NCBI RefSeq assembly: GCF_021353235.1
Contig: NZ_JAJTWT010000002.1
Location: forward strand, 620,001-684,000
Direction: 5' to 3'
DNA length: 64,000 nt
Source of the DNA: Pelomonas caseinilytica
GTDB taxonomy: Bacteria; Pseudomonadota; Gammaproteobacteria; Burkholderiales; Burkholderiaceae_C
The notes under the pieces: model-generated
What the model was told of the DNA's origin: nothing
The model's input: only the letters and a program-made list of their open reading frames with translations
Database searches by the model: none
Shown here: piece after piece, positions 4,494 to 30,961 of the stretch
Layout: every line of letters starts with the position of its first letter
Numbering within the stretch: position 1 is the first letter of the stretch
Translations under genes and position numbers: made by a program

Positions 4494-6968
4494 ATGAATC
4501 CCACGATGAACCGCCTGCTAGCCCTCGCCTTTCTGACCCTCTCCCTGGCCGCCTCGGTCCGGGCCGCCCCGCTGCGCGAGACGCTGTCGCTCGACGAGGG
4601 CTGGCGCTTCCACCTGGGCGACATCGCGCGCGAGTCCTTTCCCGGCGGCCAGGGCGTCAATCTCTACGGCCCCGACATCACCTACCACGGCGCCAAGGCC
4701 GGCAGCGCCTGGGGTGCGGCGGCGCGCGGCTACGACGACAGCGGCTGGAAGCGGGTGGACCTGCCGCATGACTGGGTCGTCGAGCAGCCCTTCGACGAGA
4801 AGGCGCTCAAGCAGCAGGGCTACCGTCCGCGCGGTATCGGCTGGTACCGGCGCACCTTCAAGCTGTCGCCCGCGGACCGCGGCAAGAACCTGGAGCTGCA
4901 GCTCGACGGCGCGGCCACCCACGCAACGGTCTACTTCAACGGCAGCGAGGTCCAGCACAACTGGAGCGGCTACAGCTCCATGTACGTCAACCTCACGCCG
5001 ATGGCGCGCTATGGCGACGACATCAACACCATCGCCGTGCGGGTGGACGCCGCGGACACCGAGGGCTGGTGGTACGAAGGCGGCGGCCTCTACCGCCATG
5101 CCTGGCTGGTCAAGCGCAGCCCGCTGCACATCGCCACCGACGGCGTCCATGCCAATCCCGTCAAAGCGACAGACGGCCAATGGGTGATCCCGGCCGAGGT
5201 GACGCTGGCCAACACCGGGCCCGAAGTGGCTTCGGCCCGGGTGGAGGTCGCGGTGTTCGATGCAGCGGGCCAGCGCGTCGCAGGCGGCAGCTCGGCGGCC
5301 GTCAGCGTCGTGCCCCAGGGCGAGGCGCTCGCCAAGCTCACCGTCCGCGTGACGGCGCCCAGGCTCTGGTCGATCGACGCGCCGAATCTCTACACCGTGC
5401 GCACCACCGTGCTGCGCGACGGCAAGCCGGTCGATGCGGTCGATACGACGGCCGGCTTCCGGACGATCCGCTTCGATGCGAAGCAGGGCTTCCTGCTCAA
5501 CGGCCAGCCGCTCAAGCTCAAGGGCACGAGCAACCACCAGGACCACGCCGGTGTCGGCGTCGCCATGCCCGACTCGCTGTGGGAGTTCCGCCTGCGCAAG
5601 CTCAAGGAGATGGGCTCGAACGCCTACCGCACGGCCCACAACCCGCCGGCCAAGGAACTGCTGGATGCCGCGGACCGGCTGGGCATGCTGGTCATGGACG
5701 AGACGCGGCACTTCAACGCCTCGACGGAATACCTGCAGCAACTCCGCTGGTTGGTGCGCCGCGACCGCAACCACCCCAGCGTCATCCTGTGGAGCCTGTT
5801 CAACGAGGAAGGGCTGCAGGGCACCGAGGAGGGCATGGAGATGGCGCGCGTGATGAACGCCGTGGTCAAGCAGCTCGATGCCACGCGGCCCACGACCGGC
5901 GCTCAGAACAAGGGCCACCTGGGGCCCGACGGCAAGGCCAACCCGAAGAACGCCGCCCAGGTGCTCGACGTGGTGGGCATCAACTACGAGGCCGACCTCT
6001 ACGACAAGATCCGCGCCGCCTACCCGGACAAGCCCATCGTCAGCACCGAGGACACCTCCCAGGTCATGACGCGCGGTGAATACACCACCGACTGGAAGCA
6101 GGTCGTGGCCTCCTACGACGAGGTCTTCCCCGGCTGGGCCGCCACCAGCAGCGCCCGCAACTCGTGGGAGGCGATCATGAAGCAGACGTCCTTCGCCGGC
6201 GGCTTCTCCTGGACTGGCTTTGCCTACCGCGGCGAACCTACGCCCTACGGCTGGCCCTCGGCCAGTTCGCACTTCGGCGCGCTGGACCTCTGCGGCTTCC
6301 CCAAGACCGAGTTCTTCGTCCGGCAGGCGATGTTCGTGAAGGACAGGCCCGTGCTGACCCTCGTCCCCCACTGGAACTGGGCCGGCAAGGAAGGCCAGAA
6401 CATCAAGGTGCTGGGCCTGACCAATGCCGAGACGGTGGCGTTGTCGCTCAACGGCCAGCTCGTCGAGGAAAAGAAGGTCGACCCCTTCAAGATGGTGGAG
6501 TGGCAGGTGCCCTACGCGCCCGGGCGGCTCGAAGCGGTCGCGAAGAAGGCGGGCCGGGAAGTGGCACGTTTCGCCGTGGAAACCACCGGCGCTCCCGTCG
6601 CACTGCGCCTGGCGCCCGACCGCAAGGCGCTGGCTGGCGACGGCCGCGATGCGGTGCCGGTGACCGTCGAGGCCGTCGACGCGCAAGGCCGACCCGTGCC
6701 GACGGCCAACCTCGCCGTCGAGTTGGCGCTCCGTGGGCCAGGCGCCAACATCGGCGTGGGCAATGGCGACCCGAACAGCCACGACCCGGAGAAGGGCAAC
6801 CGGGTCAGGATCTACAACGGCCTGGCGCAGGTCATCCTGCAGAGCCGGCGCGACAGCGCGGGCGACCTCGTGCTGCGCGCCACCGCGGCCGGCCTCAAGG
6901 CCGCCGAAACCACCATCGAGGTCAGGGCCGTGCCGGCGATGGCCGCCGTGCCGGTGCTGGCGCCCTGA
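4494..6968 (+). CDS. GH2 beta-galactosidase, DUF4982-type
   Basis: 824-residue family 2 glycoside hydrolase with a signal peptide (RLLALAFLTLSLAASVRA). Domain order: jelly-roll sugar-binding domain (about 30-210), Ig-like domain (215-325), TIM barrel (330-610), then DUF4982-like and Ig-like C-terminal domains. The acid/base is Glu438 in LFNEEG and the probable nucleophile Glu519 in VSTEDTS. This architecture is typical of periplasmic beta-galactosidases in polysaccharide loci. It starts 12 bp after the upstream gene; a second ATG at 4506 is possible. It ends before a strong inverted repeat that may separate it from the GH127 gene. Confidence 0.9.
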   Translation: MNPTMNRLLALAFLTLSLAASVRAAPLRETLSLDEGWRFHLGDIARESFPGGQGVNLYGPDITYHGAKAGSAWGAAARGYDDSGWKRVDLPHDWVVEQPFDEKALKQQGYRPRGIGWYRRTFKLSPADRGKNLELQLDGAATHATVYFNGSEVQHNWSGYSSMYVNLTPMARYGDDINTIAVRVDAADTEGWWYEGGGLYRHAWLVKRSPLHIATDGVHANPVKATDGQWVIPAEVTLANTGPEVASARVEVAVFDAAGQRVAGGSSAAVSVVPQGEALAKLTVRVTAPRLWSIDAPNLYTVRTTVLRDGKPVDAVDTTAGFRTIRFDAKQGFLLNGQPLKLKGTSNHQDHAGVGVAMPDSLWEFRLRKLKEMGSNAYRTAHNPPAKELLDAADRLGMLVMDETRHFNASTEYLQQLRWLVRRDRNHPSVILWSLFNEEGLQGTEEGMEMARVMNAVVKQLDATRPTTGAQNKGHLGPDGKANPKNAAQVLDVVGINYEADLYDKIRAAYPDKPIVSTEDTSQVMTRGEYTTDWKQVVASYDEVFPGWAATSSARNSWEAIMKQTSFAGGFSWTGFAYRGEPTPYGWPSASSHFGALDLCGFPKTEFFVRQAMFVKDRPVLTLVPHWNWAGKEGQNIKVLGLTNAETVALSLNGQLVEEKKVDPFKMVEWQVPYAPGRLEAVAKKAGREVARFAVETTGAPVALRLAPDRKALAGDGRDAVPVTVEAVDAQGRPVPTANLAVELALRGPGANIGVGNGDPNSHDPEKGNRVRIYNGLAQVILQSRRDSAGDLVLRATAAGLKAAETTIEVRAVPAMAAVPVLAP

Positions 6969-6980
6969 AGACCAAACAAA

Positions 6981-7040
6981 GCCACAGAGGCACAGAGAGG
7001 GCGGGATGAAGGTTCCTCTGTGTCTCTGTGCCTCTGTGGC
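6981..7040. repeat. Perfect 18-bp inverted repeat, REP-like hairpin
   Basis: GCCACAGAGGCACAGAGA at 6981-6998 is repeated exactly as its reverse complement at 7023-7040 with a 24-bp loop. It lies 12 bp after the GH2 stop and 73 bp before the GH127 start, in an otherwise empty 145-bp gap. There is no following T-run, so a classical terminator is not certain; an mRNA-stabilising or REP-type element is equally possible. Confidence 0.75.
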
Positions 7041-7113
7041 TGTGTTCTCTTCCCGCACGGCACCTCGTCTTGCATGCGTCGCGGGTGCCGCGAATGCGGA
7101 ATGGAAAACTGAC

Positions 7114-9003
7114 ATGACTGATCGACGTGACTTCCTGGCCGGCTCCGCCGTAGCGCCGCTGCTGGCCGCCCTGTTGCCCGAGGCCCGCGCCGCACAACCG
7201 GCTGCACGCGGCCACGACGTGCGGCCCTTCGCCCTGTCCCAGGTGCGCCTGCTGCCGGGCCTCTTCGAGACCGCGCAGGCGCTGGACCAGCGCTACCTGC
7301 GCTCGCTCAACGCCGACCGGCTGCTGCACGGCTTTCGCGTCAACGCGGGGCTCGTGCCCAAGGCCGCACGCTACGGCGGCTGGGAATCCCAGGAGCTCTG
7401 CCCGGGCCATACCCTGGGCCACTACCTGAGCGCCTGCGCCATGATGGGCGCGTCCAGCGGTCAGGCCGACTTTCACCGGCGCGTGGCCTACGTGGTGGAC
7501 GAGCTGCAGGCCTGCCAGCAGGCGTCCGGAAGCGGCCTGGTATGCGCCTTCCCCGACCGCGATACGCAGCTGCGCAACGCCATCGCGGGTCGGTCGGTCA
7601 CCGGCGTGCCCTGGTACACCATGCACAAGATCCTGGCCGGCCTGCGCGACGCCCACCTGCATGCCTCGAATCCCCGCGCCCTGCCCGTCATGGTGCGTCT
7701 GGTGGACTGGATGCTCGACGCCACGCGGGACCTCGACGAGCTGCGCTTCCAGAAGATGCTGGACCTGGAACACGGCGGCATGAACGAGGCGCTGGTGGAC
7801 CTGCACGCGCTCACCGGCGACCCACGCCACCTGCAGCTGGCGCAGCGCTTCAGCCACCGCGCGTTGCTCGATCCCCTGGCCGAAGGCCGCGACACGCTGG
7901 ACGGCCAGCACTCGAACACCCAGATTCCCAAGGTGATCGGCTTCGCGCGACTGGCCGAAGCCACCGGCGAGCCGCACTACGGCCGGGCCGCTCGCTACTT
8001 CTGGGGCACCGTGGTGCACCGGCGCTCCTTCGCCACCGGAGGCAACGGCGACGCCGAGCACTTTTTCCCAGTGGACGAGACGCCCAAGCACGTGTCGTCG
8101 GGCCGAACCATGGAGACCTGCTGCACCTACAACATGCTGCGGCTCACACGTGCGCTGTTCAGCGCCGCCCCTGCGGTGGGCTATGCGGACTACCACGAGC
8201 TCGCCCTGTTCAACGGCATCCTCGCCTCGCAAGACCCCGACAGCGGGATGGTGACGTACTTCCAGCCCGTCGCGCCCAGCCGTCCGAAGCTGTACGGTTC
8301 GCCCGAGCGCTCATTCTGGTGCTGCACCGGCACCGGGCTGGAGAACTTCGCCAAGCTGGGCGACTCGATCTACTTCCACGACGGCCAGGCGCTCTACGTC
8401 AACCTGTTCATCGCCTCGACGCTCGACTGGGCGGAGCAGCGCGTCCGCGTGCGGCAGACCACGGTCTTCCCCGACGAGCCTCGCACGCGCCTGGCCATCG
8501 ACGCCGCCACGCCGACCCGCTTCACCCTGCGCCTGCGCCATCCCGGCTGGTGCCCGCGACTTACCGTGCGGCTCAACAGCCGCCCGCTGCTGGAGAACGT
8601 AGACCCCGGCCGCTACGTTGAAATCGACCGCCTCTGGCGCCAAGGCGACGTGCTCGAGCTGGACCTGCCGATGCCGCTGCGTATGCAGCTGCTGCCCGGG
8701 GCCCCGGACATCGCGGCGGTCATGACCGGCCCGATCGTGCTCGCGGCCCGGCTGGGTGCAAAAGACTTCGGCCCCGGGGACGACGTCGGCCCGGACAACG
8801 GGTACTGGGGCCACCGGCTGGAGTCGAAGGCACCCCTGCCGCGCCTAGCGCTGGCCGGACGCGCGCTGGATCAGGCCGTGCGGCCTGGCCATGCGCCCCT
8901 GGTCTATAGAACCCGGGCCGATGAGACAGGCCGCGAAGTCGAGCTGGTGCCCTTCCACCGCATCGCGCATGAGCGCTACAGCCTCTACTGGAAGATCAGC
9001 TGA
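7114..9003 (+). CDS. GH127 beta-L-arabinofuranosidase
   Basis: 629-residue family 127 (former DUF1680) enzyme that removes beta-linked L-arabinofuranose. The Met at 7114 opens a Tat-like leader (DRRDFLAGSAVAPLLAALLP); longer readings run through the hairpin upstream. The (alpha/alpha)6 barrel holds the metal/nucleophile set known from HypBA1: Glu334 and Cys336 in METCCTYN, and Cys403-Cys404 in FWCCTGTG. The catalytic Cys would be Cys403. The gene ends TGATG, its stop sharing the A with the ATG of the next GH2 gene. In xyloglucan or arabinan side chains it would act together with the neighbouring galactosidases. Confidence 0.9.
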   Translation: MTDRRDFLAGSAVAPLLAALLPEARAAQPAARGHDVRPFALSQVRLLPGLFETAQALDQRYLRSLNADRLLHGFRVNAGLVPKAARYGGWESQELCPGHTLGHYLSACAMMGASSGQADFHRRVAYVVDELQACQQASGSGLVCAFPDRDTQLRNAIAGRSVTGVPWYTMHKILAGLRDAHLHASNPRALPVMVRLVDWMLDATRDLDELRFQKMLDLEHGGMNEALVDLHALTGDPRHLQLAQRFSHRALLDPLAEGRDTLDGQHSNTQIPKVIGFARLAEATGEPHYGRAARYFWGTVVHRRSFATGGNGDAEHFFPVDETPKHVSSGRTMETCCTYNMLRLTRALFSAAPAVGYADYHELALFNGILASQDPDSGMVTYFQPVAPSRPKLYGSPERSFWCCTGTGLENFAKLGDSIYFHDGQALYVNLFIASTLDWAEQRVRVRQTTVFPDEPRTRLAIDAATPTRFTLRLRHPGWCPRLTVRLNSRPLLENVDPGRYVEIDRLWRQGDVLELDLPMPLRMQLLPGAPDIAAVMTGPIVLAARLGAKDFGPGDDVGPDNGYWGHRLESKAPLPRLALAGRALDQAVRPGHAPLVYRTRADETGREVELVPFHRIAHERYSLYWKIS

Positions 9004-11573
9004 TGGTTGACACCATGATGCGACGGAGCCTGCGGCTCATCGCCGTCCTGCTTGTCCTTGCCTGCGCACTCACCGCCCAGGCCTCGCCGAGGCAGCGCGA
9101 GAGCTTCAACGCCGGCTGGCGCTTCCACTTCGGCTCCGCCGCCGACGCCGAGCAGCCGGCCTTCGATGACGCCGGCTGGACCGCCATCGGCCTGCCGCAC
9201 AGCTTCAGCCTGCCCTACTTCCAGTCGGCCTCCTTCCCGGTCGGCGAGGGCTGGTACCGCAAGGCGTTCGAGCTGGCGCAGGTGCCGGCCGGCCGCCGCG
9301 TCTTCCTCGAGTTCGAAGGCGCCTTCCAGGTGGCCGACGTCTACGTCAACGGCCAGCGCCTGGCCACCCACCGTGGCGGCTACACCGGCTTCAGCGTGGA
9401 CCTCACGCCTGCGCTGAAGGCCGGGCGCAACCTCGTCGCCGTGCGGGTGGACAACCGCTGGGAGCCGACGCTGGCGCCGCGCGCGGGCGAGCATGTCTTC
9501 AGCGGCGGCCTCTACCGCGACGTCTGGCTGGTGCAGACGCGCGACGTGCACGTGCCCTGGACCGGCACGCGCATCACGACGCCAGGGCTCTCGGCCGAGC
9601 AAGGCACTGTCGTCGCCGAGACCGAGGTCCGCAACGACGCGGCGCGCGAGCAGACGGTCGTCGTGCGCACCGACATCGTCGATGCGAATGGCGCACGGGT
9701 CAGCCGCCTGCCCGAGACGCGGCTGCGCGTGCCGGCCGGCCGCATGGTCGTGGCCACGCAGCGCTCGGCCCCCGTCGCGCGGCCCGCGCTGTGGTCGCCC
9801 GAGACGCCGCGGCTCTACCGCGCCTTGACGCAGCTCATCGTCGATGGCCGCCTCACGGACCGCCTCGAGACCGAGTTCGGCTTCCGCTGGACGCAGTGGA
9901 CGGCGGACAAGGGCTTTTTCCTCAACGGCCAGCACCACTACTTCCGCGGCGCCAACGTCCACCAGGACCAGGCCGGCTGGGGCGACGCGGTCACGAACGC
10001 CGCCATCGAGCGGGACGTGGCCCTGATGAAGGATGCCGGCTTCGACTTCATCCGCGGCTCCCACTACCCGCACGACCCGCATTTCGCGGCGGCGACCGAC
10101 CACCTGGGCCTGCTCTTCCTGTCCGAGGCGCCGTTCTGGGGCACCGCCGGCTTCAAGAGCCCCTGGGGCGCCTCGGCCTACCCGACCGATCCGGCGCACG
10201 AAGCCGGCTTCGAGGCCAGCGTGCTGCAGCAACTGGCGGAGATGATCCGCATCCATCGCAACCACCCGTCCATCGTCGCGTGGAGCATGGGCAACGAGGC
10301 CTTCTTCACGGCGGACGCGACCCTGCCCAAGGTCAGGAAGCTGCTGAAGGCCATGGTGGCGCTGTCGCACGAACTCGACCCCTCGCGGCCCGCGGCCGTC
10401 TCGGGCGTGCAGCGCGGCGAGCTCGACCGGCTGGGCGACATCGCCGGCTACAACGGCGACGGCGCCGTGCTCTTTCCCGACTCCGGCGTGCCCAACTTCG
10501 TCGCCGAATACGGCTCGACCATCGCCGACCGCCCCGGCGAATTCGCGCCCGGCTGGGGCGACCTGGAGCGCACGCCCGGTGCCCGCCCCGGCCAGCCCGA
10601 CAGCTGGCGGCCGGCCTGGCGCTCCGGCGAGGCCATCTGGGCCGGCTTCGACCATGGCTCCATCGCCGGCCGGCAGTTCGGCTCGATGGGCCTGGTCGAC
10701 TACTTCCGCCTGCCCAAGCGCCAGTGGTACTGGTATCGCCAGCACCAGCGCGGCATCGCCCCGCCGGCCTGGCCCGAGGCCGGCCGCGCCGCGGCGTTGC
10801 GCCTCGCGTCCAGCGCGCCGGCCATCCGCCGTGCCGACGGCACGGACGACGTGCAGCTCGTGGTCACCGTCGTCGACGCGCAGGGCCGGCCATTGAGCAA
10901 CAGCCCGCCGGTGCACCTGGAGATCGAGTCCGGCCCCGGCGAGCTGCCCACGGGCCGCGCCATCGACTTCGCGCCCGGCTCCGACATCGCCATCCGCGAC
11001 GGCCAGGCCGCCATCGCGATGCGCAGCTGGCAGGCGGGCGTGAGCCGGCTGCGCGCCAGCTCGCCGGGCCTGCGCGACGCGACGCTGGACGTTCCCACCC
11101 TGGCCGGGCCGGCCTTCCGGCCCGGGGTGACGCCGCTCGCGCCGCCACGTCCCTACCACCCTGCGGTGGCGGCAGCCGGTGAAGAGCAGGCCTTCGGCCG
11201 GAACAACCCCACCGAAGCCAGCTCGGCCGCGTCCGGCCACGCGCCGCGCCTGGTCAACGACGGCGATGCCGCGACATGCTGGCAGCCCGAGCCCGGTGAC
11301 GGCGATCCCTGGATCGCCCTGGACCTGGAGCGCATCGTGGCCATCAGCCGCGTCGTCGTGCGTCCCTGCGGGCCCGGCCGCCATGCGCTGCAGGCCGAAG
11401 TGCAGCAGCTCAACGGCCAATGGCTGCCGCTGGCGGCAAGCCCCGAACGGGAGCTCGACGGCGGCCCGCTCGAACTGCCGACCGAGGCCCTCACGGGCCG
11501 CCGGGTGCGCCTGAAGGTCCGGGGTGGGGGCATCGCGGAGTTCGGCGTCTTCGGTCGCCTGGTCAACCCATGA
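9003..11573 (+). CDS. GH2 beta-galactosidase with C-terminal discoidin-like domain
   Basis: 856-residue family 2 hydrolase whose ATG overlaps the GH127 stop; ATGs at 9015 and 9018 are alternatives that give a tighter signal peptide (RRSLRLIAVLLVLACALTAQA). Sugar-binding, Ig-like and TIM-barrel domains are present, with acid/base Glu432 in MGNEAFF and nucleophile Glu502 in VAEYGST. The C-terminus (about 725-856, LVNDGDAATCWQPEPG) resembles an F5/8 type C/CBM32 carbohydrate-binding domain. It differs clearly from the other GH2 (4494-6968), which suggests a different linkage or side chain. Secreted or periplasmic. Confidence 0.9.
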   Translation: MVDTMMRRSLRLIAVLLVLACALTAQASPRQRESFNAGWRFHFGSAADAEQPAFDDAGWTAIGLPHSFSLPYFQSASFPVGEGWYRKAFELAQVPAGRRVFLEFEGAFQVADVYVNGQRLATHRGGYTGFSVDLTPALKAGRNLVAVRVDNRWEPTLAPRAGEHVFSGGLYRDVWLVQTRDVHVPWTGTRITTPGLSAEQGTVVAETEVRNDAAREQTVVVRTDIVDANGARVSRLPETRLRVPAGRMVVATQRSAPVARPALWSPETPRLYRALTQLIVDGRLTDRLETEFGFRWTQWTADKGFFLNGQHHYFRGANVHQDQAGWGDAVTNAAIERDVALMKDAGFDFIRGSHYPHDPHFAAATDHLGLLFLSEAPFWGTAGFKSPWGASAYPTDPAHEAGFEASVLQQLAEMIRIHRNHPSIVAWSMGNEAFFTADATLPKVRKLLKAMVALSHELDPSRPAAVSGVQRGELDRLGDIAGYNGDGAVLFPDSGVPNFVAEYGSTIADRPGEFAPGWGDLERTPGARPGQPDSWRPAWRSGEAIWAGFDHGSIAGRQFGSMGLVDYFRLPKRQWYWYRQHQRGIAPPAWPEAGRAAALRLASSAPAIRRADGTDDVQLVVTVVDAQGRPLSNSPPVHLEIESGPGELPTGRAIDFAPGSDIAIRDGQAAIAMRSWQAGVSRLRASSPGLRDATLDVPTLAGPAFRPGVTPLAPPRPYHPAVAAAGEEQAFGRNNPTEASSAASGHAPRLVNDGDAATCWQPEPGDGDPWIALDLERIVAISRVVVRPCGPGRHALQAEVQQLNGQWLPLAASPERELDGGPLELPTEALTGRRVRLKVRGGGIAEFGVFGRLVNP

Positions 11574-11642
11574 GGCGTCCGGGCGCCGGGATTCATCGCC
11601 AGCCGTCTGGCCGTTCACACAACAACTGATTGGGACATGCTC

Positions 11643-13823
11643 ATGAGCAGGAAGAACTTCTGGACGCTGGCTTTGGCCTCCCTGGCCGCCGCCCTGGTGG
11701 CAGCGGGCTGCGGTGGTGGCGGTGGTGGCGGCAGCGGTGCCGGCGCAGATGCCACGGGCACCAGCCCCGGGCCCGGGCCGAGCAGCCCGCCCGCGTCGGC
11801 CAGCGTGACAGCGGTCAGCGCCATGACGGCCGACTTCAGCGCAGCGGCCTCGCCGCGCATGAACGAGCGCGCCTACTACCGCGTCACCGGCAGCAACCTG
11901 CCCGGCACGCTGGCGCTGGACGTGGCCGACTGCGCCCGCATGACGGCCATCTCGATCAGCGGCACCGAGGCACGCTTCCAATGCATGCCCAGCTTCACCG
12001 AAGGCGCCAAGGCCATCAGCGTCAAGGCGGCCGCGGCGGACGCGGCGGCGCTGTTCTCGGGCTCCGTCACCGTGCAGGCCGCCACGGCGCCCTTGCCCAT
12101 GCCGACCTATGGCTTCAACCTCGGCAACACCTTCGAGGCCACGTGGGGCTATCCGGACCCGACGCAAGCCGTCTTCACCAACGCCGCCAAGGCCGGCTTC
12201 AATGCCGTGCGCATCCCCTGCGCGTGGGACTTCAACTCCGACAAGACGACCGGCCAGATCAACGCCGCCTACCTGGCCAAGGTCAAGCAGTCGGTGGACT
12301 GGGCCCTGGCGGCCGGCATGCACGTGATGATCAACATCCACTGGGACGGCGGCTGGTTCGAGAACCACATCGGCGACACGGTCGATCCGGCCATCGATGC
12401 CCGGCTGAAGTCCCTCTGGCAGCAGATCGCCACCGCCTTCGCCGGCTACGACAACCGCCTGCTGTTCGCGGCGGCCAACGAGCCCAATGCCGACACCGTC
12501 GCCAAGACCAGGACGCTCTACGCCTACTACAAGAGCTTCATCGACACGGTGCGCGCCGCCGGCGGCAAGAACGCCAACCGCTGGCTGGTGCTGCAAGGCA
12601 GCCAGGTGCCCTGGTCCACCAGCCTGCCGGCCGACCCCACGCCCGGCCGGCTGATGATGGAGTACCACAACTACACGCCGTCCCTCTTCACCATCATCCA
12701 CGACGACCCGTCCTGGGGCCGGTCGATCTACTACTGGGGCAAGGCCTATCACTACGCCGGCGACCCGAGCCGCAATGCGACGGCCTGGGAAGAAGGCAGC
12801 ATCGATGCCGGCATGCAGCAGCTCAAGGAGGCCTTCGTCGACAAGGGCATCCCGGTGCTGGTCGGCGAGCTGCAGGCCGCGCCCACGCCCGGCCTCACCG
12901 GCGACGCCAAGACCTGGAACAAGGCTTCCACGCTGTACTGGAACAAGTACGCCGTGGACTCGGCGCAAGGCCATGGCCTGAGCCCGTTCTACTGGAGCAC
13001 GCCCGACAGCCCCTTCCGCTACAGCGACGGGGCCATCCTGGACGACGCGGTCGTCCAGGTGCTGACCGGCGGCACGGCACCGCCGCCGCCCAACGGCGCG
13101 CCGGCGGCCGTCACGGGCCTGACGGCCCAGGCCAGCGGAGCCAGCCAGGTCGACCTGAGCTGGCAGGCCGTTGCCGGTGCCACCAGCTACCAGCTCTACC
13201 GATCGGCCCAGTCCGGCGGACAGCCCGACCAGGCCTCCGTCAGCGCCATCTCCGGCACCCGCTACAGCGACACCGGCCTGAATGCCGGCACCACCTACCA
13301 CTACAAGGTGGTCGCGGTGAACGCGTCCGGCGTGTCGGGCCAGTCGCCCGAGGTCCATGCCAGCACCTCCGGCAGCAACCCCGATCCGACGCCCTTCAAC
13401 TTCGAGACCGACATCCAGGGCTGGTCCTACAGCGGCGGCCAGATCACCGCCATCACCACGTCGACGGCGCAGAAGTTCGCCGGCCAGCGCTCGCTCGCCG
13501 TCAGCATCGCCGCGACGGCCGCGGGCTCGTCGTCGCTGGACCTGTCGGACGTCAACCTGCCGGCCGGCGCGACGATCAGCTTCAAGGTCTGGGCGCCGAC
13601 AGGCCACGCGATCAGCAGCATCGAGCCCTTCATGCAGGACTACAACTGGACCTGGACGGCCTCTTGGAGCGGCGCCCCTTCGGCCAACGGCTGGAGCACG
13701 GTCACCCTCAAGGTGCCCGACAACGCCGTGGCTCCGCTGAAGCGGCTGAGCCTGAAGTTCAACACCAGCGGAGCCTGGACGGGCACGGTCTACGTCGATT
13801 CGATCAGCTGGAGCGTCCCTTGA
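11643..13823 (+). CDS. GH5 endoglucanase/xyloglucanase lipoprotein with Fn3 and CBM domains
   Basis: 726-residue surface lipoprotein. The ATG at 11643 is preferred because GGGA at 11632-11635 stands 7 bp before it; an ATG at 11637 is also in frame. The leader ends in a lipobox (LVAAGC) followed by a Gly-rich linker. An Ig-like module (about 55-150) precedes the GH5 barrel, with acid/base Glu280 in AANEPNA and nucleophile Glu409 in LVGELQ. A fibronectin III domain and a jelly-roll carbohydrate-binding module form the last 240 residues. The layout resembles GH5_4 endo-xyloglucanases. It is a close paralogue of the gene at 28385-30769. Its stop overlaps the TTG start of the next gene. Confidence 0.9.
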   Translation: MSRKNFWTLALASLAAALVAAGCGGGGGGGSGAGADATGTSPGPGPSSPPASASVTAVSAMTADFSAAASPRMNERAYYRVTGSNLPGTLALDVADCARMTAISISGTEARFQCMPSFTEGAKAISVKAAAADAAALFSGSVTVQAATAPLPMPTYGFNLGNTFEATWGYPDPTQAVFTNAAKAGFNAVRIPCAWDFNSDKTTGQINAAYLAKVKQSVDWALAAGMHVMINIHWDGGWFENHIGDTVDPAIDARLKSLWQQIATAFAGYDNRLLFAAANEPNADTVAKTRTLYAYYKSFIDTVRAAGGKNANRWLVLQGSQVPWSTSLPADPTPGRLMMEYHNYTPSLFTIIHDDPSWGRSIYYWGKAYHYAGDPSRNATAWEEGSIDAGMQQLKEAFVDKGIPVLVGELQAAPTPGLTGDAKTWNKASTLYWNKYAVDSAQGHGLSPFYWSTPDSPFRYSDGAILDDAVVQVLTGGTAPPPPNGAPAAVTGLTAQASGASQVDLSWQAVAGATSYQLYRSAQSGGQPDQASVSAISGTRYSDTGLNAGTTYHYKVVAVNASGVSGQSPEVHASTSGSNPDPTPFNFETDIQGWSYSGGQITAITTSTAQKFAGQRSLAVSIAATAAGSSSLDLSDVNLPAGATISFKVWAPTGHAISSIEPFMQDYNWTWTASWSGAPSANGWSTVTLKVPDNAVAPLKRLSLKFNTSGAWTGTVYVDSISWSVP
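12165..12500 (+). repeat. Near-identical tract shared with the inverted GH5 paralogue
   Basis: These 336 bp match the reverse complement of 29705-30040 with about four mismatches by eye and no indels, while the flanking parts of the two genes are clearly more divergent. This looks like recent gene conversion or duplication. The copies are inverted and 17 kb apart. Confidence 0.85.
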
Positions 13824-16800
13824 AGGTTCAGGCCCTGAGGCTGCTGCGCCGGGCCGCCGCGCTCTTCGGCCTGGCCTTGTGCCTGGCGGCCCAGGCCGAA
13901 GAGGACGGCTCGCGCCTGTGGCTGCGTTATCCCGAAGTCGCCCAGGCTGAGCGCCTGGCCGACTACCGCCGTGCGCTCACACAGGTCGTTCGCGCCAGCG
14001 ACTCGGCCACGCTGCAGGCCGCCCAGGACGAACTCGTCACCGGCCTGGGCGGGCTGCTCGGGAGGCCCCTGCCCGTCTCCGACGCACCGACGGCTGCCGG
14101 CGCGATCGTGCTGGGCACGCCGGCCTCCTCGCCCCGCGTGCGCAGCCTGGGCTGGGACAGCCGGCTGGCCGGCCTTGGCCCCGAGGGCTATCTCGTCGAG
14201 GCCGTGAAGCTCGACGGCCGCCCCGCCCTCGTCATCGCCGCCAACACCGACGTCGGCGTGCTCTACGGCAGCTTCGCGCTGCTGCGCCATCTGCAGATGC
14301 AGCGCCCCATCGCCGGCCTCGCGCTGAGTGGCACGCCGAAGATCGCCCGCCGCCTGCTCAACCACTGGGACAACCCCGACGGCAGCGTGGAGCGCGGCTA
14401 CGCCGGCCGCTCGCTGTGGCAGTGGAACGAACTGCCAACCACCCTTTCACCCCGCTACCGCGACTACGCCCGCGCCAATGCCTCCATCGGCATCAACGGC
14501 GCGGTCCTGAACAACGTCAACGCAGACGCCCGCATCCTGCGCAGCGCCGAGCTCGACAAGGTGGCGGCCCTGGCCGGCGCGCTGCGCCCCTGGGGCATCC
14601 GCGTCTACCTCAGCGCCCGCTTCAGCGCGCCGATGGAGATCGGCGGCCTGGCCACGGCCGATCCGCTCGACCCGGCCGTCAAAGCCTGGTGGAAGGACAA
14701 GGTCGCGGAGGTCTACTCGAAGATCCCGGACTTCGGCGGCTTCCTCGTCAAGGCCAATTCCGAAGGGCAGCCGGGGCCGCAGACCTACGGGCGCAGCCAC
14801 GCCGACGGCGCCCGCATGCTGTCCGATGCGCTGGGCCCCCACGGCGGCGTCGTGCTCTGGCGCGCCTTCGTCTACGGCGAGCACGGTCCCGACCGCGTGC
14901 GCCAGGCCTACGACGAGTTCAAGCCCCTGGACGGGGACTTCGGCGCCAACGCCGTCGTGCAGGTCAAGAACGGGCCGCTGGACTTCCAGCCCCGCGAGCC
15001 CTTCCATCCGCTGTTCGGCGCCATGCCGCGCACGCCGCTGGCTCTGGAGCTGCAGATCACCAAGGAATACCTCGGCGCCGACAGCCACCTCGCCTACCTC
15101 GGCACGCTGTTCGAGGAGGTGCTGAGGTCCGACACCCACGCCCAGGGTCCGGGTTCGACGGTCGCGCGTGTCGTCGACGGCAGCCTGGACGGCCACGCCC
15201 TGAGCGCCATCTCCGGCGTCGCCAACATCGGCAGCGACGCCAACTGGACCGGCTCGCACTTCAACCAGGCCAACTGGTATGCCTTCGGCCGCCTGGCCTG
15301 GGACCCCGACGCCTCGGCGCGCGACATCGCCGAGGAATGGGTACGCCAGACCTGGAGCAACGACCCTGCCGTCGTCGGGCCGGTGACCCGCATGATGATG
15401 GCCTCGCGCCAGGCCGTCGTCGACTACATGACGCCCCTCGGCCTCGTGCACCAGATGGGCACCGACCACCACTACGGCCCGTCGCCGTGGGTCAAGGACC
15501 TCGGCAACGCCAGCTGGAACCCGGCCTACTACCACCGCGCCGACCGCGACGGCATCGGCTTCGACCGCAGCGAGTCCGGCAGCGATGCCGTCGCGCAATA
15601 TGCACCAGCGGTGCGCGACCGCTTCGCCAGCCGCGCGACCGTCGGCGACGACCTGCTGCTGTTCTTCCACCATGTCGGCTGGGACGAACGGCTGGCGTCG
15701 GGGCGTTCGGTCTGGGCGGAGCTGGTACACCGCTACAGCGCCGGCGTCGACGCTGTGCACGCCATGCGAGAGACCTGGCAGGGCCTGCATGGCCGCATCG
15801 ACGGCAGGCGCTTTGCCGAGGTGGCCGACTTCCTGCGCATACAGCACCACGAGGCGCGCTGGTGGCGCGACGCCAGCCTGCAGTACTTCGCCAGCGTCTC
15901 CGGCCGGGACCTGCCTGCCGGCTATGCGGCGCCTGGCCATGCGCTGGGCTGGTACCAGGACCTGGCCCGCCGTTGCCCGCCCGACGCCGCCAAGCCGCGC
16001 TGCCCGGAGGTCTATGCCGGCGAGCCGTCGCCAGCCATCCTCGCGCCGACGACGGGTGGCGAGCTGACGACCGCGGGCCTGAGCACCAACGGGCGCACGC
16101 TGCCGCTGGGCATCTCCGGCGACGACATCTCCCTGGGCTGGACGCTGACCGCCCACACGCGCGGCGCAGTCCAGCAGGCCTACCAGGTGCGCGTCGGCAC
16201 GCAGCCGGGGCGCGGCGATGTCTGGGATTCGGGCAAGGTGGCGTCCGAGCGCCAGGCCGACGTGCGCCTGCCGGCCAAGCTGCAACCCGCCACGCGCTAC
16301 CACTGGCAGGTTCGCGCCTGGGATGGCCGGGGCCGCGTCGGCCCCTGGAGCCGGCCGACCTGGTTCGAGACTGGCCTGCAGTCCGCGGCCGACTGGCAGG
16401 GCGCGCAATGGATCGCCGCCCCCTTCGACGCCGCCGACCAGCCGCGCCCGCTGCTGCGCGCCTCGCTGCGGCTGGACAAGCCGGTTCTGCGGGCGCGGCT
16501 TTACGCCAGCGCCCGCGGCGTCTACCAGCTCTGGGTGAACGGCCGGCCCGTCGGCGACCAGGCCCTGGCACCGGGCTGGACCGACTACGCCCGGCGGCTG
16601 CAGGTGCAGACCTACGACGTCACCGCCCTGCTGCGCCCTGGCGCCAATGCCGTCGGCGCCGCGCTGGCCGACGGCTGGTACCGCGGCAAGGTGGGCATGG
16701 GCTGGCGGGCGGTCTATGGCCAGCAGCTCGCGCTGAAGACCGTGCTGCGCATCACCTATGCCGACGGCAGCAGCCAGGCCTTCGGCACCGGCACCGGCTC

Positions 16801-18736
16801 CGAATGGCTCAGCCTGCCGGGCCCCTGGCTGCAGGCCGACCTGCAGGACGGCGAGCACTACGACGCCCGCCGCCTGCCCGCGGGCTGGGCCGAACCGGGC
16901 TTCGATGACGGCGCCTGGCAGCCGGTGGTGGCCGTGGCCGAAACCGAAGCCCGCCTCGTTCCCCAGCCCGACGAGCCGGTACGAGCGACCGAAGTGCGCC
17001 GCGCCCAGGCCCGCCTGCCCGGGCCTGCTGGCGCCTTCGTCTACGACCTCGGCCAGAACCTCGTCGGCGTGGCCCGCGTGCGGCTGACCGGCCGCGCCGG
17101 CCAGACGGTGAGACTGCGCCATGCCGAAGAACTCCACCGAAGAGGCGAGCGCCGCGGCCAGCTCTACACCGACAACCTGCGCGGTGCCGCGGCGACCGAC
17201 AGCTACACCTTCGCCCACGACGGCACCGTGACCTGGCAGCCGCGCTTCACGCAGCACGGCTTCCGCTACCTCGAGATCAGCGGCCTGGACTCCCCACCGG
17301 CGCTCGCCGACGTGCAGGCCGTCGTGCTGGGCTCCGACCTGCCGGCGGTGGGCGAGCTGCGCCTGTCCCACCCCATGCTGGACCAGCTCGTGCGCAACAT
17401 CCGCTGGGGCGCGCGCGGCAACCTGCTGTCCATCCCCACCGACACGCCGGCACGCGACGAGCGCCTGGGCTGGACGGGCGACATCAACGTCTTCGCGCCC
17501 ACGGCCGCCCGGCTTTTCGACATGCGCGCCTTCCTGTCCAAGTGGATGGACGACATGGCCGACGCGCAACGGCCGGACGGCAACATCCCGGCCGTCGTGC
17601 CCTTCCCTGGCCGCAACTTCGGCGAGACCGGCGTGGGCTGGTCGGATGCCTTCATCACCGTGCCCTACGCCACTTGGCGAGCCAGCGGCGACACCGCCCT
17701 GCTGCGCCGCCATTGGCGGGCCATCCGACGCTTCTACGATTTCGTGCACGCCAGCGCGACCGCCGACGGCAATCTGCTGGAGGAGGGGCGAGCCTCCTGG
17801 TTCTCGGGCGACTGGCTGAGCCTGGAAGGCGTGGACCGCCTGCGCGAGCACCCCGTCATCGCGACGGCCTATTTCGCCGAAGACACGCGCATGATGGCCG
17901 AGATGGCCGCGGCCCTCGGGGAGGCGGCGCAGGCCGAGGCCTGGCAGTCCCTGGCCGCGCGCATCCGCAGCGCCTTCGCCCAGGCCTACCGGGCACCGGA
18001 CGGCCGCATCGAGCCCGGCACGCAGACGGTCTACGCCATGGCCCTGGGCATGGGCCTGCTGGCGCCGGGAGCGCAGCGCGATGCCACGGCGGCGCGCTTC
18101 GTCGAGAAGATCGCCGGCGACGATTTCCACCTCAAGACCGGCTTCCTCGGCACGCCCTGGCTGCTGCCGGCCCTGTCCGCCATCGGCCGCGACGACCTCG
18201 CGATGCAGCTGCTGCTCAACGAGGATGCGCCGTCCTGGGGCTTCGAGGTCCGCATGGGCGCCACCACCGTCTGGGAGCGCTGGAACAGCATCGGCCCGGA
18301 CGGCGCCTTCGGCCCGGTGGAGATGAACTCCTTCAACCACTACGCCAACGGCGCCGTCGCCGACTGGATGTTCGGCCGCCTCGGCGGCCTGCAGATCGTC
18401 GAGGCGGGCTACAGGAAGGCCCGCATCGCACCGTGGATGTCGCACCCTGCCGTGAGCCAGGCCAGGGCCAGCCTGAAGACCCCCTTCGGCCTGCTGGCCT
18501 GCCGCTGGCGCCGTGCGCCCGACGGCCTGCACCTGGAGGTGGAGGTGCCGGTGGGGACCGAGGCAGAAGTCCTGCTGCCGACCACGGCGCCCGAGCGCGT
18601 GCGCGAAGGCCGGCGGGCCGCGTCCCGCGCGCCAGGCGTGCGGCAGGCGGCCTGGAAGGACGGCCTGCTGAGGCTGCGCCTGGGATCGGGCCGCTACGGG
18701 TTCTTCGTGCCTGCCGGCCCTGAAGCACCGGCCTGA
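13820..18736 (+). CDS. GH67 alpha-glucuronidase - GH78 alpha-L-rhamnosidase fusion
   Basis: 1638-residue secreted bimodular enzyme. The start is a TTG overlapping the previous stop (TTGA), with GGAG 6 bp upstream; it gives a good signal peptide (LRLLRRAAALFGLALCLAAQ). Residues about 35-740 are a complete GH67 alpha-glucuronidase, with Glu315 (KANSEGQPG), Asp388 (KNGPLDFQ) and Glu416 (ITKEYLG). Their 73- and 28-residue spacing equals that of the known Cellvibrio catalytic residues 292/365/393. From about 747 a complete GH78 alpha-L-rhamnosidase follows: Fn3-like, N-terminal beta domains, an (alpha/alpha)6 barrel with the DTPARDERLGW motif (1208-1218) and Glu1486 in WERWNS, and a C-terminal domain. 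No stop or frameshift separates the halves. The 3' end overlaps the convergent sensor gene by 43 bp. Confidence 0.9.
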   Translation: MKVQALRLLRRAAALFGLALCLAAQAEEDGSRLWLRYPEVAQAERLADYRRALTQVVRASDSATLQAAQDELVTGLGGLLGRPLPVSDAPTAAGAIVLGTPASSPRVRSLGWDSRLAGLGPEGYLVEAVKLDGRPALVIAANTDVGVLYGSFALLRHLQMQRPIAGLALSGTPKIARRLLNHWDNPDGSVERGYAGRSLWQWNELPTTLSPRYRDYARANASIGINGAVLNNVNADARILRSAELDKVAALAGALRPWGIRVYLSARFSAPMEIGGLATADPLDPAVKAWWKDKVAEVYSKIPDFGGFLVKANSEGQPGPQTYGRSHADGARMLSDALGPHGGVVLWRAFVYGEHGPDRVRQAYDEFKPLDGDFGANAVVQVKNGPLDFQPREPFHPLFGAMPRTPLALELQITKEYLGADSHLAYLGTLFEEVLRSDTHAQGPGSTVARVVDGSLDGHALSAISGVANIGSDANWTGSHFNQANWYAFGRLAWDPDASARDIAEEWVRQTWSNDPAVVGPVTRMMMASRQAVVDYMTPLGLVHQMGTDHHYGPSPWVKDLGNASWNPAYYHRADRDGIGFDRSESGSDAVAQYAPAVRDRFASRATVGDDLLLFFHHVGWDERLASGRSVWAELVHRYSAGVDAVHAMRETWQGLHGRIDGRRFAEVADFLRIQHHEARWWRDASLQYFASVSGRDLPAGYAAPGHALGWYQDLARRCPPDAAKPRCPEVYAGEPSPAILAPTTGGELTTAGLSTNGRTLPLGISGDDISLGWTLTAHTRGAVQQAYQVRVGTQPGRGDVWDSGKVASERQADVRLPAKLQPATRYHWQVRAWDGRGRVGPWSRPTWFETGLQSAADWQGAQWIAAPFDAADQPRPLLRASLRLDKPVLRARLYASARGVYQLWVNGRPVGDQALAPGWTDYARRLQVQTYDVTALLRPGANAVGAALADGWYRGKVGMGWRAVYGQQLALKTVLRITYADGSSQAFGTGTGSEWLSLPGPWLQADLQDGEHYDARRLPAGWAEPGFDDGAWQPVVAVAETEARLVPQPDEPVRATEVRRAQARLPGPAGAFVYDLGQNLVGVARVRLTGRAGQTVRLRHAEELHRRGERRGQLYTDNLRGAAATDSYTFAHDGTVTWQPRFTQHGFRYLEISGLDSPPALADVQAVVLGSDLPAVGELRLSHPMLDQLVRNIRWGARGNLLSIPTDTPARDERLGWTGDINVFAPTAARLFDMRAFLSKWMDDMADAQRPDGNIPAVVPFPGRNFGETGVGWSDAFITVPYATWRASGDTALLRRHWRAIRRFYDFVHASATADGNLLEEGRASWFSGDWLSLEGVDRLREHPVIATAYFAEDTRMMAEMAAALGEAAQAEAWQSLAARIRSAFAQAYRAPDGRIEPGTQTVYAMALGMGLLAPGAQRDATAARFVEKIAGDDFHLKTGFLGTPWLLPALSAIGRDDLAMQLLLNEDAPSWGFEVRMGATTVWERWNSIGPDGAFGPVEMNSFNHYANGAVADWMFGRLGGLQIVEAGYRKARIAPWMSHPAVSQARASLKTPFGLLACRWRRAPDGLHLEVEVPVGTEAEVLLPTTAPERVREGRRAASRAPGVRQAAWKDGLLRLRLGSGRYGFFVPAGPEAPA

Positions 18737-21700
18737 CTGGCCGAGGCCGCCGAGCGCACCACCTCCAACTGCCCGCTGGCCAGCCATTCGGCCGGCGGCT
18801 TGCGCAGCAGCTCCGACAGGGCCGCTTCGCCCACGCCGGGCATGGCGGCGAGAACGCCCACCCAGGCATTGCGTCCGCTGCGCTTGGCCTCGTAGAGGGC
18901 GCCGTCGGCCACGTCGACGACGGTGCTCCAGGCCAGCGCCTGCGGATGGTCCGTGGCCAGCGGGAAGCAGGCGAAGCCGATCGAGCAGCTGCGCGCCAGC
19001 AGCTGCCCGTCGGGCAGCACGAAGGGCTTGTCCGCCACCGCCTGGCGGATGCGCTCGGCCTGCTTGACGGCATGCTGGCGTGCACCGTCGCGGGCGACGA
19101 TGAGGAACTCCTCGCCACCCCAGCGCACCACATGGTCGCTGTCACGGCAGACCTGGCGCAGCCTCTGGCTCATCTGCACCAGCACGGCGTCGCCGGCGGA
19201 GTGGCCGTACTGGTCGTTGACCTGCTTGAAGTGGTCGACGTCGACCAGCATGAAGACCAGGTCCCTGGCCACGGCGGACGCCGGCCCGGCCCGGTGACGC
19301 AGCGCCAGCGACACGTCGGTGTCGATGTGCTGGGTCAGGTAGCGGCGGTTGTGCAGGCCGGTCAGCGGATCGCTGAGGCTGGAGACCTCCAGCGCCTCAG
19401 ACTTCTGCTGCAGTGCTTCCGACAAGGCCTGCAGTTCGGTCGTGCGCTGCCGGACGTTCTGCTCCAGCCACAGCTGGCGGCTCTGCAGCTGGCGGGTGCG
19501 CAGCAGCACCAGGGCGTAGACCCCCAGCACCGCCAGCAGGGCACCCAGGCCGCGCGCCCACCAGGTCTGCCACCAGGCGGGCAGCACCTCCACCGCGACC
19601 CGCAGCGGCGGCTCGCTCCATTCGCCGAGGCGGTTGCTGCCTTGCAGCAGCAGGGCATAGCGGCCCGGCGGCAGGTTGGCGTAGCTGGCCACGCGCTGCT
19701 CGGCCGGCGCCGCGATCCAGTCCTCGTCGTAGCCCTCCAGGCGGTAGCGGTAGCGGTTCTGCAAAGGGGTGCTGAGATCCAGCGAAGCGAAACCCACCGA
19801 GAAGGCCCGCTGCGGCGGCGCCAGCGTGAGTCCCCGGGCCAGCTGGCCGGCCGGAAGTTCCCGGCTGTCGATGCGCAGGTCCGTCGCCACCAGCGGCGGC
19901 TTGAAGTCCCAGCGCCTGAAGCGCTGCGGCTCGACGACGAGCAGCCCGGTGCTGCCACCGAACAGCATGCGGCCGTCGGCCAGCTTGGCATACGAACGGA
20001 ACCAACCCGTGCCGATGTCGGCGCCATCGATCTTGCTGAACTCGGTGAAGCGCCGCAGCGCCGGCTCGTAGACGCCGCGATGGGTCCAGATGCGGCCCTC
20101 GGCATCGTCCAGCAGGTTGGCGCCGAAGCTGCGGTCGCCGAAACCGGCGCGGGCGCTGACATCCTCGAACCCCTGGCCCTCGGCATGGCGGAACAGGCCG
20201 AGATTGGTGTCCACCCACAGGGCACCGCGGGCGTCCAGCAACAGGCCGAGCACAGCGGCCTTGGGCAGCCCCGGCCCGCCGTCGTGGGGCTTGAGCACGC
20301 CGTCCTCGACGCGGAACAGGCCGTTGTCGGCCCCCACCCAGAGCCGGCCCTCGGCGGTCTCGACGATGGCATTGACGTTGCCCAGGCGGCGTCCGCCGCC
20401 GGCCAGCGGCACGCGCTCCAGATCGCGCCCGCCCGGCGCCAGGCGGTACAGGTCCTCGATGGTGCCGACCCACAGCGTGCCGTCGCGCCCGCCGAGCAGC
20501 CGGCGCACGCCCGCCTGCCTGGTGCTGAAGATGTCGCGCAATCGACGATCGCGATCGAAGCGGAACAGCTGGCTGCGGTTGTTGCCGGCCCAGACGCTGC
20601 CATCCGGCGTCTGGGCCAGCGCGCCCACCAGGCCGGTGAAGCGGCCGTCGGGGAGGATGGCGCCGGTGCTGCGCAGTTGGGTGTCCAGGATGGCGATGCC
20701 GCGCCCCGCCGTCCCCAGCCAGATCTCGCCGCTGTGCAGCTGCAGCACGCTGCGCACGTCGGGGTCGGCGAGCGGGCTGGCGGGCTCGTCGTCCTGCCGA
20801 CGCACCCACAGGCCGTTGCGGACGGGGTTGTGACGCTGCAGGCCTCCGCCGTAGTTGCCCACCCAGACCACGCCCGCCCGGTCCTGCAGCAGCGCATGGA
20901 AGACGGTACCGGTCAGGCTGCCCGGCCTGCGGCGGTCGGGCTTGAGGGTGTGCAGCAGGCGGCCGTCGCGGTCGCGCACCTCGATGCCGGCGGTGCGGCC
21001 CACCCAGACCTCGCTGCCACTGACGTTCAGCAGCGCGATCAGCTGCGAAGTGCCCATCGCGGCCTCGCCGCTCTCGAGCAGGCGCGCCGTGCCGTCGGCG
21101 GGGTCGATGGTCATCAGCCGGCCGTCGCGCGCGCCCGCCCAGATGCGGCCGTCCGGCCCCTCGATCAGCCCGTCGACGGCCGTGCCCTCGAGCAGTTCAA
21201 CACTGACCGGCTCGAAGCGGTCGGCGCCGGCACGGCGCCTGACGACGCCGCGCCAGGTGCCCACCCAGAAGTCGCCCCGCCGGTCGAACAGCAGCGCGCT
21301 GATGCGGTCATCGGGCAGCCCGCTGCCGTCGGCCGCGCGATGATGCTCGAAGCGACCGCTGGCGGGGTCCAGGCAGTCGAGGCCGGCGAGCAGGCCGAGC
21401 CAGATGCGGCCGTCGGGTGCCTTGGCCATCTTGAAGACGCTGCCTGGCGAGATGGAGTCGGGCCGGGCCGGGTCATGGCGGTAGAGCGTCCAGCGCTCGG
21501 CCAGGATGTCGAAGCGCGCCAGGCCCTCGGCATCGCCGCCGGCCCAGAGGAGGTCGCCATCGGCCAGCAGCTGGCGCAGGAAGCGGTTGCCGCGCTCGCC
21601 GCCGGTGCCCGTCATGGGGAAGGCCTTGGTCTGGTAGCCGTCGTAGCGCATCAGCCCGACGGCGGTGCCCATCCAGAGCAGGCCGCGTTCATCCTGGGCC

Positions 21701-21837
21701 ATCGAGGAGACGATGCCATCGACCAGGGCCGAGGTGCCGCCGGCGGGCACGAAGCGCAGCTCGGCCATGGGGTCGCGCTCCGCCCGGACCGGGTTCAGCG
21801 CGAGAAGCAGGAAGAGCAGGAGGAACCAGAGACGCAT
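18694..21837 (-). CDS. Propeller-type sensor diguanylate cyclase (GGDEF)
   Basis: 1047-residue membrane sensor that makes cyclic di-GMP. A signal peptide leads into about 14 two-component-regulator propeller repeats (30-650, many WVG and DGTLW motifs), a Y_Y_Y domain (about 650-760), one transmembrane segment near 770-790, a short coiled coil and a C-terminal GGDEF domain. The active-site motif GGEEF is at 907-911, preceded by an RxxD inhibitory site (RDSD) at the canonical distance, so the cyclase should be active and product-inhibited. The periplasmic propeller resembles those of hybrid sensors that bind oligosaccharides in Bacteroidetes loci. It may couple sugar sensing to biofilm or motility. 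Its stop lies inside the convergent GH67-GH78 gene. Confidence 0.9.
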   Translation of the reverse strand: MRLWFLLLFLLLALNPVRAERDPMAELRFVPAGGTSALVDGIVSSMAQDERGLLWMGTAVGLMRYDGYQTKAFPMTGTGGERGNRFLRQLLADGDLLWAGGDAEGLARFDILAERWTLYRHDPARPDSISPGSVFKMAKAPDGRIWLGLLAGLDCLDPASGRFEHHRAADGSGLPDDRISALLFDRRGDFWVGTWRGVVRRRAGADRFEPVSVELLEGTAVDGLIEGPDGRIWAGARDGRLMTIDPADGTARLLESGEAAMGTSQLIALLNVSGSEVWVGRTAGIEVRDRDGRLLHTLKPDRRRPGSLTGTVFHALLQDRAGVVWVGNYGGGLQRHNPVRNGLWVRRQDDEPASPLADPDVRSVLQLHSGEIWLGTAGRGIAILDTQLRSTGAILPDGRFTGLVGALAQTPDGSVWAGNNRSQLFRFDRDRRLRDIFSTRQAGVRRLLGGRDGTLWVGTIEDLYRLAPGGRDLERVPLAGGGRRLGNVNAIVETAEGRLWVGADNGLFRVEDGVLKPHDGGPGLPKAAVLGLLLDARGALWVDTNLGLFRHAEGQGFEDVSARAGFGDRSFGANLLDDAEGRIWTHRGVYEPALRRFTEFSKIDGADIGTGWFRSYAKLADGRMLFGGSTGLLVVEPQRFRRWDFKPPLVATDLRIDSRELPAGQLARGLTLAPPQRAFSVGFASLDLSTPLQNRYRYRLEGYDEDWIAAPAEQRVASYANLPPGRYALLLQGSNRLGEWSEPPLRVAVEVLPAWWQTWWARGLGALLAVLGVYALVLLRTRQLQSRQLWLEQNVRQRTTELQALSEALQQKSEALEVSSLSDPLTGLHNRRYLTQHIDTDVSLALRHRAGPASAVARDLVFMLVDVDHFKQVNDQYGHSAGDAVLVQMSQRLRQVCRDSDHVVRWGGEEFLIVARDGARQHAVKQAERIRQAVADKPFVLPDGQLLARSCSIGFACFPLATDHPQALAWSTVVDVADGALYEAKRSGRNAWVGVLAAMPGVGEAALSELLRKPPAEWLASGQLEVVRSAASASQAGASGPAGTKNP

Positions 21838-30769: not shown

Positions 30770-30892
30770 GGGTCTGACCTTTCGAGAGGAATGCCCGGGG
30801 CGAACTTGTCTCCAACGACCTCGGGCGGATGGGATGCGGGCGCTACGCCGCGGGAATGACGGACAGCGCCGCGGCGCTGGTCCAGCCGTTGC
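30419..30892 (-). repeat. Duplicated leader segment, copy 1
   Basis: These 474 bp are homologous to 33275-33748. They cover a fossil fucosidase 3' end, the intergenic leader (CGAACTTGTCTCCAACGACC) and the first 117 codons of the gene. The GH74 gene has the same leader. Confidence 0.85.
30843..30892 (-). pseudogene. Fossil 3' end of a GH29 fucosidase gene
   Basis: About 16 codons read GNGWTSAAALSVIPAA and stop (TAG), matching the true fucosidase ending NGWTSAAELSVIPAQ at 33699-33750, with the stop codon at the same alignment position. It has no upstream reading of its own family, so it is a remnant of a tandem duplication, not an expressed gene. Confidence 0.75.
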
Positions 30893-30961
30893 CGAAGGGG
30901 TGACTGGATGGGCAAGAAGGGGCGGCGACACCCCTTCCTGCCATGGCCTGGAGCGTGATGC

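Follow-up and report, generated by a model that had tools for sequence, protein, structure and literature searches.

A glycan-use locus of Pelomonas caseinilytica raises the question of whether two complete glycoside hydrolases are made there as one protein and, if so, where each came from and what the pair might act on. We analyzed a window of 64,000 nucleotides (contig NZ_JAJTWT010000002.1, positions 620,001 to 684,000), and all coordinates below count from its first letter. A sequence-only reading of this DNA had described a single uninterrupted frame of 1638 residues, holding a GH67 alpha-glucuronidase and a GH78 alpha-L-rhamnosidase that are both full length. Our analysis bears this out. 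The gene runs from a TTG start codon at 13820 to 18736 on the + strand as one open frame with no internal stops. A Shine-Dalgarno-like GGAG (13810–13813, +), read from the sequence 6 nt upstream of the TTG, would serve in ribosome binding. Because of this motif, because the TTG shares bases with the stop codon (TGA) of the upstream GH5 gene in the string TTGA, and because the next in-frame start codon (a TTG at residue 20) lies within a hydrophobic signal-like stretch, we place the start at 13820. By hydropathy, residues 1 to 26 (13820–13897, +) resemble a signal peptide (15-residue maximum of 1.95 at residue 12), and the protein is predicted to be exported.

Eight Pfam models, all nearly complete, cover the protein with E values from 1.5e-142 to 6.5e-16; a ninth, fn3, falls below its cut-off. 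The GH67 alpha-glucuronidase occupies residues 33 to 701 (13916–15922, +), with the N, M, and C models (PF03648, PF07488, and PF07477) at residues 33–154, 158–476, and 477–701. The GH78 alpha-L-rhamnosidase occupies residues 753 to 1599 (16076–18616, +), with the Ig, N, concanavalin, 6-hairpin, and C models (PF25788, PF08531, PF05592, PF17389, and PF17390) at residues 753–853, 888–1058, 1070–1170, 1177–1519, and 1523–1599; two NCBIfam rhamnosidase equivalogs also match this half, both below their cut-offs. Between them, residues 702 to 752 (15923–16075, +) take in the tail natural to the GH67, a link of a few residues, and the start of the mature GH78. An antisense frame of 1446 aa (14447–18787, −) covers the fused gene and in all likelihood results from the high G+C content. 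With an antisense frame this long in such high-G+C DNA, the length of an open frame is by itself little proof; the reality of the fused gene is carried by its domain matches and by the natural ends of its two halves.

Both halves retain their catalytic residues, as the sequence-only reading had also held. The GH67 half aligns gap-free over 691 residues with the solved GH67 structure 1gqi, which we take to be GlcA67A of Cellvibrio japonicus. Glu315, Asp388, and Glu416 align with what we assume, from the residue names and numbering offset of that enzyme, to be its catalytic residues. They have the family spacing and are identical in all 122 other GH67 rows aligned. In chain 1h41, which is otherwise alike, the residue aligned to Glu315 is Ala, as in an inactive mutant. 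All nine GlcA67A residues that we checked are kept, including W183, V233, K311, R348, K383, and W566, presumably the set lining the pocket and the +2 subsite; W566, which we take to be the +2-subsite tryptophan, is common to 115 of the 122 other rows. Given this conservation, the plainest prediction for the GH67 half is an ordinary activity with a xylo-oligosaccharide-type pocket. Characterized GH67 enzymes, according to extracts of one study, take MeGlcA off the non-reducing-end xylose of xylo-oligosaccharides rather than off the polymer (PMC4870768).

For the GH78 half, the best solved-structure match is 3w5m, SaRha78A of Streptomyces avermitilis. Counted on this alignment, Glu1214 (in DTPARDERLGWTGD) and Glu1486 correspond to 3w5m chain positions 636 and 895, and these two residues, the general acid and base, are identical in all 23 of the other GH78 rows in the alignment. 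Passages of the structural paper place Glu636 of SaRha78A about 3.5 Å from O-1 of the bound rhamnose (PMC4690510). This half is thus predicted, from its sequence, to be an alpha-L-rhamnosidase.

Could the long frame instead be an assembly or sequencing error that joined two adjacent genes? The fusion is known from one genome, in an assembly of 40 contigs, and near-duplicate GH5 genes lie in inverted orientation at 11637–13823 (+) and 28385–30931 (−). Their shared stretch (11826–13808 versus 30376–28400, 86% DNA identity over 1985 bp) stops 11 bases before the fused gene. It is the only long blastn repeat of 11600–18800 within the window, a further match (67%) being another GH5. The repeat nevertheless ends about 2.2 kb before the junction, and the junction's own surroundings (15000–17200) have no second near-identical copy elsewhere in the genome; the other matches there are a native GH67 (74% similar) and four of fewer than 60 bases. 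The ends of unfused relatives are more telling. A separate GH67 of Sorangium cellulosum (64–65% identical) finishes with ..KPRCSQVYTGDPSPAILP-stop, and ..KPRCPEVYAGEPSPAILAPTTGGEL.. is the corresponding part of the fused protein; the two share the tail PSPAIL, immediately after which the Sorangium gene stops. The separate GH78 of Pelomonas sp. Root1217 (78%) begins with a stretch resembling a signal peptide and continues with ..GELTVTGMTANARSRPLGI, versus GELTTAGLSTNGRTLPLGI in the fused protein. GEL, the first clearly aligned residues of the mature Root1217 enzyme, is found a few residues after PSPAIL, so that only a few residues separate the natural end of the GH67 from the natural start of the GH78. 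This leaves no room for a GH78 start codon and signal peptide. A hidden stop would strand the GH78 without either: residues 669 to 789 contain no ATG, GTG, or TTG in frame, and residues 690 to 790 lack a hydrophobic stretch from which a second signal peptide could form. The codon-position G+C pattern also continues unchanged across the junction. On the codon pattern, the natural ends, the missing start codon, and the lack of a second copy, we reject an erroneous join as highly improbable. The earlier statement that no stop or frame change lies between the halves is thereby supported, and the caution about sequencing error that accompanied it can largely be set aside. An AlphaFold model of residues 27 to 1179, built on a 15-row alignment, was of low quality, with a mean pLDDT of 62 and values under 50 for most of the GH78 part, and is therefore uninformative on the join.

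The architecture is unusual and, among the genomes and plasmids searched, unique. We used the whole fused protein as the query in 1,798 genome searches in total, some genomes being repeated. In the large samples, scoring covered the two or three best candidate places in each genome, and the matches listed are those at least as strong as E 1e-80 or 1e-100. Phylum names for samples other than that of the window are inferred from the loci used as sample centers. Among the matches listed, only the window's own gene matched at full length, and it was the only such match in its own genome. Within the genus, 14 of 20 genomes had a match and one, the window's own, had the fusion; we therefore reject the idea that the fusion is common in the genus. 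Beyond the window's gene, no full-length match was present among the matches listed in 299 genomes of the family (7 matched), 398 of the phylum (25 matched), or the 8 genomes behind the relative loci (all matched). The same was true of the samples from Myxococcota (2 of 188 matched), Gemmatimonadota (23 of 150), Verrucomicrobiota (107 of 240, the stronger matches being listed), Acidobacteriota (54 of 247), and Bacteroidota (58 of 247). None of 260 matching plasmid records reached 80% coverage of the query. A contig scan found a relative in 503 of 504 stretches, and none of the best 80 of these 503 covered both halves. Two loci that looked like candidates, L030 and L107, were rejected as fusions: their matches overrun the GH67 end (in L030 as far as residue 788, beyond the stop of its GH67 gene), yet their GH67 genes end normally, and neither locus has a GH78 match.

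Separate halves sharing a contig were looked for by eye. In addition, 163 loci, those from the genome searches mostly spanning about 5 kb, were tested by tblastn, and both halves were found in three, namely the window's own and two Bacteroidota-sample loci from related genomes (L159 and L160). In these two, GH78 and GH67 are separate genes on one strand, about 8 to 12 kb apart; L159 has two GH78 genes, a GH29, and a GH67 on the same strand inside an 18-kb span, interspersed with genes for a permease, a glycosyltransferase, and others. An enzyme pairing GH67 with GH78 is likewise absent from the titles and opening abstracts of the literature searched. The sequence-only reading knew of no such pair and proposed looking for the same two-domain architecture elsewhere; the genome and plasmid searches yielded no comparable fusion. 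The fusion is a rare architecture of known parts, in one species.

The fused gene closes a run of genes of the glycan-use locus on the + strand, in the order GH42, beta-helix, GH2, then GH127, GH2, GH5, and GH67::GH78. The run opens with a GH42 beta-galactosidase (28–2184) and a beta-helix protein with a PDZ-like C-terminus (2157–4481, its start set where homology begins), which may be an uncharacterized glycan-active enzyme. Next come a GH2 (4494–6968) that passes the NCBIfam cut-off for beta-galactosidase GalA, a GH127 (6733–9003; its start was called mechanically, and the true one is probably later), a GH2 with an F5/8-type C domain in the domain scan (9003–11573), and the GH5 whose stop overlaps the fused gene's start (11637–13823), which carries an fn3 and a mannanase-type galactose-binding-like domain. 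Downstream, a gene for a propeller sensor (Reg_prop, Y_Y_Y) that also has a GGDEF domain (18694–21837, −) runs in the opposite direction toward the fused gene; with its mechanically called boundaries, it extends 43 bp into the 3′ end of the fused gene. Also on the − strand are a GH5, a sortilin-like protein (perhaps, we assume, a GH74), a GH29, a TonB-dependent receptor, and a GH9, a set that family knowledge suggests is of xyloglucan type. The locus also encodes two tryptophan-halogenase-family proteins (26823–28295 and 41237–42880, both −), and one protein of this family is encoded near the GH78 of Root1217. A GH39 gene is located immediately upstream of the window.

The two halves appear to have different histories. 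The genome carries a second GH67 as a separate gene (C1:759260-761353, 61% identical to the GH67 half) beside a GH43, an MFS sugar transporter, a LacI-type regulator, an SMP-30/gluconolactonase-like gene, and an FGGY sugar kinase. In a quick tree of 123 GH67 rows, with SH-aLRT support and no bootstrap, this copy falls in a clade of 11 rows from the genus (SH-aLRT 95) that excludes the fused half. The fused half is instead sister to the Sorangium enzyme (SH-aLRT 100), inside a group with ten other members from the Gemmatimonadota sample (SH-aLRT 94). Because of this grouping, we reject the possibility that the GH67 half was copied from the native gene. In a 24-row GH78 tree, by contrast, the other half is sister to the enzyme of Root1217 (100/100). 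There, a beta-helix protein (63%), GH42 (73%), GH2 (86%, to the window's 4494–6968 gene), and the GH78 (78%) are consecutive, so the beta-helix protein is kept beside GH42 and GH2 in both. Near this row, similarity to window genes also identifies GH5, GH29, and GH9, and Pfam identifies GH95 and GH3. No GH67 match was found in 58 kb around the Root1217 GH78. Given the affinity of the GH67 half for Sorangium and Gemmatimonadota, and given that Root1217 has a separate GH78 with three shared neighbors, the GH67 was probably acquired from outside the genus and joined to a resident GH78 within a large glycan-use locus. The simplest reading of the gene orders is that GH127-GH2-GH5-GH67 entered between GH2 and GH78; an intact donor cassette was not found in any genome searched.

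Rough dN/dS values (NG86 only, crude, third positions being about 92% G+C and dS therefore unreliable) were 0.29 for the GH78 half versus Root1217, 0.31 for the separate native GH67 pair, 0.16 for the neighboring GH2, and 0.48 for GH42. The GH78 half thus shows no sign of decay, its value being near that of the native GH67 pair. The value for the GH67 half versus Sorangium was 0.42, a pair too distant for this to say much.

What the pair acts on is a separate matter. The sequence-only reading proposed a glycan bearing both (methyl)glucuronic acid and rhamnose, such as rhamnogalacturonan side chains or exudate gums, rather than plain xylan. Its rhamnose side agrees with SaRha78A, which frees rhamnose from gum arabic according to extracts of PMC4052742; its dismissal of plain xylan is not supported, because the GlcA67A-type pocket is kept. 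The same extracts describe removal of arabinogalactan GlcA by beta-glucuronidases. A gum-type substrate is a weak proposal for the GH67 half, since GH67 cuts alpha-links and gum-type glucuronate is beta-linked. Xylan stays among the possible substrates because dicot glucuronoxylan contains both alpha-GlcA and, in its reducing-end tetrasaccharide, alpha-L-Rha, as described in passages of PMC4827005. The rhamnogalacturonan or exudate-gum substrate is thus weakly supported and goes beyond the evidence. Klebsormidium heteroxylan was rejected as a substrate, its uronic acids being reported as undetectable in extracts of PMC11688530.

Two ways in which both activities would meet on one glycan deserve weighing. 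Ordinary glucuronoxylan could serve both halves, the GH67 half taking the MeGlcA branches and the GH78 half the alpha-L-Rha of the reducing-end tetrasaccharide. The canonical GH67 half, the described tetrasaccharide, and the GH39 gene upstream fit this, but in the passages of PMC4827005 the tetrasaccharide Rha is capped by xylose. Moreover, the + strand neighbors are rich in beta-galactosidase-type families, a Pfam scan of the 26 window proteins besides the fused one saw no GH10, GH11, or GH43, and a GH43 instead adjoins the genome's other GH67. We regard this route as unlikely. Alternatively, the halves might work in series, GH78 removing a rhamnose cap from alpha-linked glucuronate and GH67 then freeing that glucuronate from xylose. 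The physical linkage of two exo-enzymes would suit such a sequence, as would the action of GH67 on (Me)GlcA at chain ends (extracts of PMC4870768), the release of Rha from gum arabic by SaRha78A, and the alpha-rhamnosyl-1,4-GlcA found in arabinogalactan side chains (both in extracts of PMC4052742). The two related Bacteroidota-sample genomes with GH78 and GH67 on one strand point the same way, although the two genes in L159 are separated by a permease, a GH29, a glycosyltransferase, and others. Yet the arabinogalactan GlcA is beta-linked in that source, and rhamnose on the alpha-GlcA of xylan is absent from the titles and opening abstracts of the literature searched. Serial de-capping is, in our judgment, quite improbable; if true, it would indicate a rhamnosylated glycan of the glucuronoxylan type that has yet to be described.

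We therefore favor two independent exo-enzymes. The fusion probably yields one exported chain with two tandem enzymes that act independently, joined in place from an acquired GH67 and a resident GH78. A GH67 gene from outside the genus, with or beside GH127-GH2-GH5, would have landed just upstream of the resident GH78, and loss of the GH67 stop together with loss of the GH78 signal peptide would have joined the two in frame. The chain would be exported, probably to the periplasm. Its N-terminal half would cleave alpha-1,2-linked (4-O-methyl)glucuronate at the non-reducing end of xylo-oligosaccharides, and its C-terminal half the terminal alpha-L-rhamnose of other oligosaccharides processed by the same glycan-use locus. 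The fusion may mainly secure joint expression and export. The open frame, intact motifs, natural ends, and foreign affinity of the GH67 half are direct observations, as is the separate GH78 in a relative; export, the two activities, the order of events, and the independence of the halves are what we infer from them.

An apparently acquired gene has thus been joined to a resident gene at the natural ends of both, in a clean two-enzyme fusion for which unfused relatives of each half are available. The pair makes it possible to test directly whether a physical link between two exo-glycosidases brings any gain and whether both substrates occur in one plant glycan.

Set against known systems, each half is ordinary. 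GlcA67A aligns without gaps and has the same catalytic and pocket residues but is a separate enzyme, whereas the fused GH67 half continues into a whole GH78. SaRha78A has the same domain order and both catalytic Glu positions as the GH78 half. It differs in its CBM67 insertion: the alignment shows no counterpart of 3w5m chain residues ~134 to 266, presumably the position of CBM67, in the GH78 half. The Sorangium GH67, the closest tree neighbor with the same C-terminal tail, ends with a stop where the fused protein continues, and the Root1217 GH78, with GH42, beta-helix, and GH2 neighbors in common, is encoded separately and has a signal-peptide-like start of its own. At the level of the locus, the xyloglucan locus of C. 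japonicus, as given in extracts of PMC4285296 (GH35, GH95, GH31, and a TonB-dependent receptor), has only the receptor type in common with the window's − strand set. Among multicatalytic CAZymes, the CE15-GH8 enzyme of Bacteroides eggerthii, from extracts of PMC8417218, also carries two catalytic domains on one chain in a glycan-use locus, though its families differ. The GH67-GH78 pair is likewise two known enzymes on one chain; its individual parts are ordinary, and their combination is what is unusual.
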